From NCBI RefSeq assembly GCF_029229925.1, contig NZ_CP107254.1, positions 62,001-126,000 of the forward strand: a stretch of DNA of 64,000 nucleotides, in the 5' to 3' direction. How positions within the stretch are numbered: position 1 is the first letter of the stretch; each line of letters starts with the position of its first letter. The stretch comes from Halorhabdus sp. BNX81 (GTDB lineage: Archaea; Halobacteriota; Halobacteria; Halobacteriales; Haloarculaceae). This document shows positions 47,758 to 50,364 of the stretch, in pieces. The notes below the pieces were generated by a model that did no database searches, was not told the DNA's origin, and saw only the letters and a program-made list of their open reading frames with translations. The position numbers were made by a program, and so were the translations under genes.

Positions 47758-48183
47758 ATGCTCGAAACCGACACGACGCGACGACGATTCGTGGGTGCCA
47801 TCGGCGGCACGATAGCCATCTCCCTTGCTGGTTGCTCGACAGATTCAGATGCAACGGATGACGAAGGGGGCGACGACTCGACGGATGAAGAAACAACATC
47901 CGACGAGACGATGGATGACGGGTCGATGGAGAACGAGACGATGGACGATGGGTCGATGGGGAATGAAACGATGGATGACGGGTCGATGGGGAATGAAACG
48001 ATGGATGACGGGTCGATGGGGAATGAAACGATGGATGACGGGTCGATGGGGAATGAAACGATGGATGACGGGTCGATGGGGAACGAGACGATGGATGATG
48101 GGTCGATGGGGAACGAGACGATGAATGACGGGACGATGGGGAATGAAACGATGACGAACGAAACCATGGCGGACGATGGATAA
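47758..48183 (+). CDS. Tat lipoprotein with a methionine-rich 10-residue tandem repeat
   Basis: 141 residues from ATG 47758. A Tat signal (TTRRRFVGAIGG) ends in a lipobox (SLAGC), so the mature protein is tethered outside. After an acidic linker come eight copies of a decapeptide, consensus MDDGSMGNET, with Met at every fifth position; the last 90 residues hold 18 Met. There is no other domain. Regular Met plus acidic residues could bind Cu+ or serve as an oxidant trap (Met to Met-sulfoxide). The last bases overlap the start of a sulfite-oxidase-family gene by eight bases, so the two proteins are made together. Copy number may vary between strains. Confidence 0.8.
   Translation: MLETDTTRRRFVGAIGGTIAISLAGCSTDSDATDDEGGDDSTDEETTSDETMDDGSMENETMDDGSMGNETMDDGSMGNETMDDGSMGNETMDDGSMGNETMDDGSMGNETMDDGSMGNETMNDGTMGNETMTNETMADDG
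47911..48150 (+). repeat. Tandem 30-bp repeat, eight units, in frame within the lipoprotein gene
   Basis: Eight units of exactly 30 bases begin at 47911, 47941, 47971, 48001, 48031, 48061, 48091 and 48121. Units 3 to 5 are identical; the others differ at a few, mostly synonymous, positions. The unit length keeps the frame and encodes a decapeptide. It also leaves other frames open, producing false antisense genes. Such perfect repeats are prone to slippage. Confidence 0.95.
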
Positions 48184-49645
48184 ACGCGTTCAGGTTTTCG
48201 CGCTCGCCGGTATCAGTGGCGTCGCTGGCTCGTACGCACTCGCGGGATACACACGGCAGTTCATCGTCGCGCCGATCGACGCCGTCGTCGTCCGATCGAC
48301 ACCGGGGCCGATCGTGGCCTGGATGATAACGAACGTCGGCGACGCAGGCCATCTGCTCCATATCGCGCTCTCGATGGGCATCGCTGGCGTGTTGCTCGGG
48401 ACGACCGCCGTTTTGGGGCAGTTCGTCGGCGCGAAACTGGATCGGTGGTTCCTCGCTCCGGGAGTGGCCGGCGTCCTCGCGTGGGCGCTCACGGTTGCGA
48501 TCACGACCGAACCAGTGCTTAGCCTCGGTGCCGCGCTGCCGGTGGCCCTGTTTACCGTTATCGGGGCCGGGTCGCTGTCTACGGCTGACCACGACCCATC
48601 TCGGCGGCGCGCGCTCGGTTCGATCCAGAGTGCGATCGGCTTTGTCGTCGTCGCTGGCGGCGCTGGCTGGGTCAAAACCAACAGCGATACCGAGACCGCC
48701 GACGAGGAGCCAGCCAGTGACCCACCGTCGCCGGTCACTCGCCGGCTCGAACAAGCAGATACGCAGTCTCTGGATCTGGCAGCCGACAACGTTCCGGGAC
48801 TCGTCAGCTCAATCGGGGAGTTTTACAACGTCGACATCGCGGAATTCGATCCCGAAATCGCCGATGACGACTGGTCGATGGGACTCACTGGCGAGGTCGA
48901 AACCGAGTTCTCGGTCACGTTCGAGGAACTGACCGACAGGCCGACCGAACACCGGTACGTTACCCTCCGCTGTGTCGGTGAGAATCTCAACGGTCGGAAG
49001 CTCGATACTGCCGTCTGGACGGGCACCCCGATCAAGCCCCTGCTTGAGGAAGCCGATCCCGAAGGCGACTGTGACTGTGCGATGCTCCGGGCGGAAGACG
49101 GCTATTTCGTGCAGTTCCCGGTCGAAGCCCTCGAGGACGCGTTTCTGGCCTGGGAGATGAACGGCCGGCCGCTCCCGAAGTCCCACGGCCATCCGGTGCG
49201 CGTGCTCGTGCCGGGCCACTGGGGAGAGACCAACGTCAAGTGGCTCACCGAGATCGAACTCCTCGACGAAGCGATGGACGGCTACTGGGAGCAGCGCGGC
49301 TGGCACGGTACTGGCCCCGTCAATACCGTCGCAAAGCTCTGGGACGACACCCGACTGGACGACGGCCGCATCGAGGTGGCCGGGCACGCATACGCAGGAA
49401 CGCGCGGGATCGAGCGCGTCGAAGTCTCGACCGACGGTGGCGCCTCTTGGACCGATGCCACCCTCTCTGCGCCGCTCCCCGGCGAGGATGTCTGGCGGCA
49501 GTGGCGTCACGTGTATGAGCCGACGGGCGACCACGAGGTGGTCGTCAGAGCGATCGACGGCGGGGGAGATCGACAGCCCCGTGATCAGTCCGATTCGTTC
49601 CCCAGCGGAGCGACCGGCTGGGTGTCGAAAGAGATCAGCGCATGA
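48176..49645 (+). CDS. Membrane-anchored sulfite-oxidase/MsrP-family molybdopterin enzyme
   Basis: 489 residues from ATG 48176, overlapping the Met-rich lipoprotein gene. Residues 1-170 contain four or five membrane helices. The rest is a sulfite-oxidase-type molybdopterin domain (VTLRCVGENLNGRKLDTAVWTGTPIKPLL) with the Mo-ligand Cys at about 266, plus GHWGETNVKWL, followed by the Ig-like Mo-co_dimer domain (IEVAGHAYAGTRGIERVEVSTDGG). The catalytic part should face outside, or the enzyme hang from its helices. Family members oxidise sulfite or, as MsrP/YedY, reduce methionine sulfoxide. The reaction here is unproven; its coupling to a Met-rich protein favours the second. Confidence 0.85.
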   Translation: MDKRVQVFALAGISGVAGSYALAGYTRQFIVAPIDAVVVRSTPGPIVAWMITNVGDAGHLLHIALSMGIAGVLLGTTAVLGQFVGAKLDRWFLAPGVAGVLAWALTVAITTEPVLSLGAALPVALFTVIGAGSLSTADHDPSRRRALGSIQSAIGFVVVAGGAGWVKTNSDTETADEEPASDPPSPVTRRLEQADTQSLDLAADNVPGLVSSIGEFYNVDIAEFDPEIADDDWSMGLTGEVETEFSVTFEELTDRPTEHRYVTLRCVGENLNGRKLDTAVWTGTPIKPLLEEADPEGDCDCAMLRAEDGYFVQFPVEALEDAFLAWEMNGRPLPKSHGHPVRVLVPGHWGETNVKWLTEIELLDEAMDGYWEQRGWHGTGPVNTVAKLWDDTRLDDGRIEVAGHAYAGTRGIERVEVSTDGGASWTDATLSAPLPGEDVWRQWRHVYEPTGDHEVVVRAIDGGGDRQPRDQSDSFPSGATGWVSKEISA

Positions 49646-49717
49646 GACCCTGTCTCACTATTGCTACCGCCATCGGGAATACTATATCCGATCCACTAAA
49701 CGCATACACACGTCGCG

Positions 49718-50062
49718 ATGGAAAAGGCACTGTGGTACCTCCTGTCGGGAACGCGTGGCGGCGCCAACCGGGCCCGCATCATCAGCCTGCTCGACGAGCG
49801 ACCACGGAACGCCAATCAACTCGCGGAGGCACTCGACGTCGACTACAACACCGTCCGCCACCACCTCGATATGCTGGTTGATCACGATGTCGTCGAGGCC
49901 GGTGGGGAGGATTACGGCGAACTGTACTTCCTCTCCGACCGGTTCGAAGCCAACCGTGACGCCTTCGAACGCATCATCAACCAGGCCGACCTCGCGGTGG
50001 CCGGCGCGAAGTCAAGCCGAGACGAGGACCCGACGGACACCGAAACGGAGACACCAAACTAA
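49718..50062 (+). CDS. Winged-helix transcription regulator
   Basis: 114 residues. An ArsR-like winged helix (ALWYLLSGTRGGANRARIISLL, NANQLAEALDVDYNTVRHHLDML, a wing with GELYFLSD) is followed by a short helix and an acidic tail. TATA-like ACTATATCC is at 49680-49688. Two bases separate it from the next gene. It could control the molybdoenzyme/lipoprotein pair just upstream, on position alone. Confidence 0.82.
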   Translation: MEKALWYLLSGTRGGANRARIISLLDERPRNANQLAEALDVDYNTVRHHLDMLVDHDVVEAGGEDYGELYFLSDRFEANRDAFERIINQADLAVAGAKSSRDEDPTDTETETPN

Positions 50063-50064
50063 CG

Positions 50065-50364
50065 ATGGCTAGCATGAACACACTGCTGACCGCGGCGAGC
50101 GTTCTCTCGGGGCTGAACATCCTGTTGCTGCTGGTCCTGGGGGGCATCTGGGCACAGAACTACCGGGAATTTCGGACGCCGCTCACGCTCGGATTGCTCG
50201 GGTTCGCGGCGGTGCTCATCATCGAGAACCTGGTGGCGCTGTCGTTTTTCTTCAGCATGGGCATGCTCTACGCCGGCTCGGAATCGGCCCAGCTGGCCGT
50301 TCTCGCGATGCGGGGACTGCAGTTCCTCGCCGTGTCATTCCTGACGGTCATCTCTCTCCGGTGA
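50065..50364 (+). CDS. Three-helix membrane protein, partner of the upstream regulator
   Basis: 99 residues, with helices near TAASVLSGLNILLLLVLGGIW, LTLGLLGFAAVLIIENLVALSFF and LAVLAMRGLQFLAVSFLTVI. It follows the winged-helix gene by two bases, and this regulator + small membrane protein pairing recurs in haloarchaea. The function is unknown; it may sense membrane state. Confidence 0.72.
   Translation: MASMNTLLTAASVLSGLNILLLLVLGGIWAQNYREFRTPLTLGLLGFAAVLIIENLVALSFFFSMGMLYAGSESAQLAVLAMRGLQFLAVSFLTVISLR

Follow-up and report, generated by a model that had tools for sequence, protein, structure and literature searches.

In the haloarchaeon Halorhabdus sp. BNX81, a lipoprotein consisting almost entirely of methionine-first repeats, here called the Met tape, is encoded by a gene that overlaps the gene for a membrane-anchored SUOX-fold molybdopterin enzyme, and this linkage is conserved and recurrent among haloarchaea. 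A functional link between the two proteins is very probable. By analogy with the bacterial MrpX/BcrX proteins and MsrPQ, we rather favour the view that tape and enzyme form an oxidant-buffering operon at the cell surface, in which methionine sulfoxide would be recycled. The window analysed is a stretch of 64,000 nucleotides, and positions given without a locus or genome handle refer to it. The tape gene has the following features:

47758–48183, forward strand: gene for the Met-tape Tat lipoprotein (ATG start; ORF, twin-arginine signal and lipobox read from the sequence).
47779–47787, forward strand: twin-arginine motif R8–R10 of the lipoprotein signal, read from the sequence.
47824–47835, forward strand: lipobox LAGC, with Cys26 as the predicted lipid-anchored N-terminus (site placed from the consensus).
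47911–48180, forward strand: 18 Met-first pentapeptide units, that is, eight MDDGSMGNET-type decapeptides plus two units.

The precursor is 141 aa long, with an N-terminus reading MLETDTTRRRF...SLAGC, and the mature protein is 116 aa. Each of the 17 neighbouring pairs among its 18 Met has a spacing of five residues. The remaining composition is dominated by 25 Asp and 14 Glu (39 acidic residues), while Lys, Arg, His, Tyr, Trp and Phe are absent from the mature tape and the lipid Cys is its sole cysteine. At the DNA level the array is a clean 30-bp repeat. The stop codon of the tape occupies 48181–48183 and the enzyme starts at 48176, giving an ORF overlap of exactly 8 bases. The enzyme gene and its domains are as follows:

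48176–49645, forward strand: gene for the membrane-anchored SUOX-fold molybdopterin enzyme, 489 aa.
48182–48685, forward strand: five-helix membrane domain, residues 3–170 (helices of the AF2 model and hydropathy).
48350–48361, forward strand: H59-x-x-H62 at the start of TM2 (predicted outer end), conserved in the subclade with most Met tapes.
48602–48607, forward strand: R143-R144, Tat motif ahead of TM5, 98–100% conserved in 93 homologues.
48851–49288, forward strand: Oxidored_molyb catalytic domain, residues 226–371 (Pfam match PF00174).
48971–48973, forward strand: codon of Cys266, the predicted Mo ligand, in an LRCV motif; this Cys aligns with those of MsrP and SUOX.
49361–49588, forward strand: Mo-co_dimer domain, residues 396–471 (Pfam match PF03404).

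The AF2 model of the enzyme (mean pLDDT 89.7, from a 41-sequence alignment) has five long membrane helices, at residues 3–23, 56–87, 93–110, 117–135 and 142–170, and the SUOX two-domain fold. Cys266 is invariant in the alignment of 41 homologues. As the twin arginines stand before TM5, we infer that the catalytic domain is exported and lies on the outer face of the membrane. The earlier note had read a Tat lipoprotein of eight decapeptides with Met every five residues, an eight-base overlap, and a membrane-anchored molybdopterin enzyme with its Mo-ligand Cys near residue 266; all of these readings stand, and nearly the whole mature chain of the lipoprotein is repeat.

Enzyme homologues were gathered from 146 genomes of the same family and from named genomes. 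For 99 of these, anchored by tblastn, the surroundings were examined over some 10 kb. An acidic Met-rich ORF is present at 16 of the 99 loci, in every case immediately upstream and on the same strand, and one locus (L039) has one further, weak match. The reciprocal test was a whole-genome pattern search for Met codons repeated four times in phase, with acidic residues beside them. Within the family, 7 of the 20 distinct places with such repeats are directly upstream of the enzyme, and across the 342 genomes of the order a further eight adjoin it in five other families (G214, G235, G177, G159, G289, G274, G163 and G251), which brings the total to 15 places in six families immediately upstream of the enzyme gene. 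The chance of such a position is about 2e-4 per place by a simple estimate (within 1.5 kb upstream, on the right strand, in a 3.5 Mb genome) in which lineages are not fully independent. The conservation of the pair in haloarchaea, which the earlier note had proposed to look for, is thereby borne out.

The linkage probably does not follow a single line of descent. The Met-rich label requires at least seven changes on the enzyme tree (starred branches), which points to a link that probably arose (or disappeared) on many occasions instead of being passed down from one origin. When the labels were shuffled 500 times, the changes counted for the unlabelled group were never so few. The upstream protein also takes several forms. 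The tape of the window has an ortholog in the same genus (L052, genome G073) and an analogue in Halonotius aquaticus (L033); these three, together with L055 and L081, are bare lipoprotein tapes, and a Tat lipobox anchor is found in the window, L033, L055 and L081. At L066, L074, L195–L198, L201 and L202 a signal peptide and Met tract are followed by a C-terminal membrane anchor. Pure tapes beside the enzyme, with no folded domain, are encoded in the window and at L033, L055, L066, L081, L119, L195–L198, L201 and L202. In a further group a Met-rich linker leads to a folded domain, which at L054, L057 and L063 is of one type, with a DUF7482 match at L054, and at L049, L059–L062, L077 and L082 is Spondin_N-like (a weak Pfam match at L082, the others by resemblance). 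These differing anchors and extra domains suggest that the link was made several times.

The enzyme is present in 203 of the 342 genomes of the order and adjacent tapes in a minority; 73 of 93 enzyme rows in the tree have no adjacent tape. As most enzyme loci of the family have none, the enzyme must have uses beyond the tape, or else a different task. It could be a general reductase of the haloarchaeal envelope for methionine sulfoxide, or for other S- or N-oxides, for which the tape would be an optional addition or one substrate among several, such as the spondin-like and DUF7482 lipoproteins, with no dedicated scavenger cycle. The many Met-rich neighbours in which a DUF7482 or Spond_N domain stands behind the linker fit this account, but the domain-free tapes that lie beside the enzyme in several lineages are not explained by a simple linker, and we regard it as unlikely, although deserving of some weight.

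Met richness is not a general property of haloarchaeal lipoprotein linkers, since Tat-lipoprotein N-termini elsewhere in the same loci contain 1.4% Met on average and 5% at most (a small sample, n=15), whereas the median for those that precede the enzyme is 12% (n=13). A pattern search of the 2.83 Mb Halorhabdus genome for fourfold in-phase Met repeats returned the window array as the sole instance, and this, with the low Met content of other Tat-lipoprotein N-termini, indicates that the array is not due to chance. Restriction of the array to one genus is refuted by the tapes in other families. Within the tracts the Met codon stays constant while the other codons vary, mostly non-synonymously, a comparison that is partly circular because the tracts were seeded on Met, and that we take as supporting evidence only. 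Met-rich linkers are found in lipoproteins away from the enzyme as well; among these, DUF7482-like lipoproteins at L172, L174, L175 and L177 share a conserved setting beside a predicted carbonic-anhydrase-like gene (named by eye).

Met-rich proteins bind Cu(I), and the tape could accordingly be a surface protein for Cu(I) or Ag(I), to which the Mo enzyme would be linked through copper handling or the repair of copper-oxidised sites. The usual spacing of Met in Cu(I) motifs is two to three residues, and the five-residue spacing of the tape speaks against such a role, as do its lack of His and of any Cys beyond the lipid Cys; no copper transporter or chaperone recurs among the conserved neighbours. 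On the other side, one Met-rich relative elsewhere (L182) is a halocyanin-like copper protein, and in E. coli the repair of oxidised Met is reported to be tied to copper stress (PMC9302797). Taken together, a copper-binding tape seems to us quite improbable.

The enzyme belongs to neither of the families with which it might be grouped. With the NCBIfam model for MsrP it scores 47.5 bits, where the cut-off is 207 and E. coli MsrP reaches 504. Its best HMM scores are with the sulfite dehydrogenases SorA and SorT, and every cut-off of the sulfite oxidisers is missed (SorA 107 bits against 600, SorT 106 against 570, SoxC 98 against 420), so we reject membership of these families. In a tree the enzyme falls in a haloarchaeal clade (support 99/99), apart from the MsrP clade (100/98) and the sulfite oxidisers (98/94), while the joins deeper than the haloarchaeal clade are weak, including its relation to the actinobacterial Sco3746-type members. 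A Foldseek search with the enzyme model gives SorA as best match (E 1e-22), with sulfite dehydrogenases and oxidases at the top and MsrP weaker, at 22% identity in the Foldseek alignment. FY and RCV motifs are common to the enzyme and MsrP. In sulfite oxidase, the RN and CxGNxR motifs serve in sulfite and anion binding, and a Tyr lies in the active site. In the alignment, FYNVDI and CVGENL take the place of the two motifs and Trp376 that of the Tyr, which argues against sulfite oxidation. The earlier note had filed the enzyme with MsrP, and this assignment falls on the score, the tree position, the presence of a dimerisation domain, the five-helix membrane part and the lack of an MsrQ in the genome; its proposed check, a tree with MsrP and the sulfite oxidases, equally separates the enzyme from the latter, whose anion-binding motifs it does not have. 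From these sequence comparisons we assign the enzyme to a haloarchaeal clade of its own, neither MsrP nor sulfite oxidase.

Several relatives and paralogs were seen alongside. A second membrane protein with a SUOX domain, a 531 aa ORF, is encoded in the same genome (G000:C1:2019895-2020737, L184) and groups with actinobacterial Sco3746-like enzymes at low support. Deep-branching relatives of the enzyme (L124, L126, L127 and L128) have a gene for a CcmE-like haem chaperone upstream (Pfam match at L124, the others by resemblance), and a homologue on a Rhodococcus plasmid (L133:3444-5969) has as neighbours an anti-sigma factor and a protein with a fasciclin domain.

That the enzyme is a divergent oxidase of sulfite or other sulfur compounds, preceded by an acidic spacer whose Met arose by DNA-repeat expansion, is very improbable, since its SorA/SorT/SUOX-like scores and structural matches, its dimerisation domain and the clean 30-bp repeat of the window are set against the missing sulfite-binding Arg motifs, the Trp at the place of the conserved Tyr, a position outside the sulfite-oxidising clade, a tape-enzyme association that arose repeatedly, and tapes in other species that hold to the five-residue Met period although their remaining codons vary and their DNA is not repetitive.

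The genome gave no match to a Ferric_reduct (MsrQ-type) protein; it encodes one MsrA and one MsrB. The earlier note had suggested that the N-terminal helices of the enzyme replace MsrQ, an idea that fits this absence but not the positions of the histidines, because the membrane helices carry no His on separate helices as haem b needs, the sole pair being H59 and H62 on one helix. A haem-b, MsrQ-like membrane domain was discarded for want of a suitable His pattern. H59 and H62 are nearly fixed in the subclade (at least 55% identity) that bears most tapes of the family, and elsewhere the positions are mostly QxxN (Gln/Asn). They are a possible cofactor site, for quinone or a metal.

Two further genes follow the enzyme:

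49718–50062, forward strand: winged-helix regulator (ArsR/HTH_20-type), a conserved operon member.
50065–50364, forward strand: gene for a small membrane protein (about three helices), which is conserved and comes immediately after the enzyme or regulator at 26 loci.

The first is the winged-helix regulator that had been reported after the enzyme, and such a gene lies downstream of the enzyme at 16 loci. In genome G278 the enzyme is encoded elsewhere, and a pure tape stands directly before the same winged-helix and three-helix pair (L205). This orphan tape is a Tat lipoprotein of 116 aa with MDDES repeats, encoded together with the pair at L205:1645-2869 (reverse strand), and its position there joins tape, pair and enzyme in a functional group on grounds other than the adjacency of tape and enzyme. 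A TATA-like element, tactatatcc, is found at 49680–49689, about 30 bases upstream of the winged-helix gene, which may therefore have its own promoter. The three-helix membrane protein has a single paralog elsewhere in the genome (G000:C1:1767495-1767680, L192).

Under the reading that we prefer, an oxidant-buffering operon, the lipid-anchored, presumably disordered acidic tape would present its 18 evenly spaced Met outside the membrane, where hypochlorite or other reactive halogen or oxygen species would convert them to methionine sulfoxide. The neighbouring five-helix, Tat-exported Mo enzyme would reduce the tape sulfoxides back to Met on the same outer face, with electrons that would be drawn from the membrane. 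Against this reading stand the many enzyme loci that have no tape beside them, the distance of the enzyme from MsrP together with its closest folds and HMM scores among sulfite dehydrogenases, the Met-rich linkers of lipoproteins away from the enzyme, and the failure to find an MsrQ or a haem-ligand pattern that would point to an electron donor. For the enzyme we lean towards methionine sulfoxide reduction on the tape as its reaction, from bacterial precedent and the comparison of active sites. The winged-helix and three-helix proteins probably sense the stress and control expression, a role that we infer.

More tentatively, and with somewhat less than even confidence, we suggest that haloarchaea have a rechargeable Met surface coat independent of MrpX-MsrPQ, served by a third, haem-free membrane lineage of the SUOX fold with its own winged-helix/three-helix stress module, the tape having been recruited several times with different anchors. 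If true, this would be the first archaeal surface defence by sacrificial Met found in these literature searches, and an enzyme lineage and anchors unlike those of the bacterial counterpart would make it a convergent design. It would also assign a probable role to a haloarchaeal molybdoenzyme clade that is widespread but unassigned, and point to the handling of extracellular reactive halogens in chloride-saturated, sunlit brines, beyond the reach of cytoplasmic MsrA and MsrB.

A 2018 review of archaeal Msr proteins describes MsrP as uncommon in archaea, and archaeal enzymes of the sulfite oxidase family as not known to act in the reduction of methionine sulfoxide (PMC6211008). In line with the earlier note, which knew of no archaeal system of this kind, we found no description of an archaeal Met-rich/SUOX pair in the searchable literature. 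Among polytopic relatives, Sco3746 and its homologues are dual Sec/Tat Moco proteins with one haloarchaeal example, from Haloprofundus (PMC5449189). They resemble the window enzyme in their five TM helices, the twin Arg directly before TM5 and the Moco domain behind it (export being predicted here), whereas the window enzyme lacks the set of histidines, conserved across TM2, TM3 and TM4, that two b haems need, and falls in a separate haloarchaeal clade whose deeper joins are weak. E. coli MsrP (YedY) shares the SUOX-superfamily catalytic domain, the FY motif, RCV at the Mo ligand and an extracytoplasmic location, but is soluble, has no dimerisation domain and is paired with the haem protein MsrQ. 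SorA, SorT, SoxC and SUOX share the two-domain catalytic and dimerisation fold and are the best Foldseek matches, and differ from the window enzyme in RN, CxGNxR and the active-site Tyr, in clade, and in the cytochrome c partner gene that it does not have.

The closest functional parallels are bacterial. In Brucella, a Met-rich MXKDX peptide together with MsrPQ confers HOCl resistance (bcrXQP, PMC8315932), and yedYZ-mrpX of Azospira, as described in citing papers, likewise combines a Met-rich peptide with MsrPQ in HOCl resistance (PMC4623255). MrpX and BcrX are exported Met-rich repeat proteins with a five-residue Met period, co-encoded with an extracytoplasmic Moco enzyme of the SUOX superfamily, and the proposal is that they take up HOCl sacrificially and are then repaired (PMC8315932, PMC4623255). 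The MXKDX consensus is absent from the window tape, whose mature protein contains no Lys, and no such model is among its NCBIfam matches. The window tape thus differs from MrpX/BcrX in being acidic, free of Lys and anchored, haloarchaeal tapes being held by a lipid or a C-terminal helix, and its enzyme differs from MsrPQ in standing outside the MsrP clade in a genome with no MsrQ. The candidate regulator is different too, the winged-helix/three-helix pair occupying here the place that an ECF sigma factor holds in the MrpX/BcrX systems.
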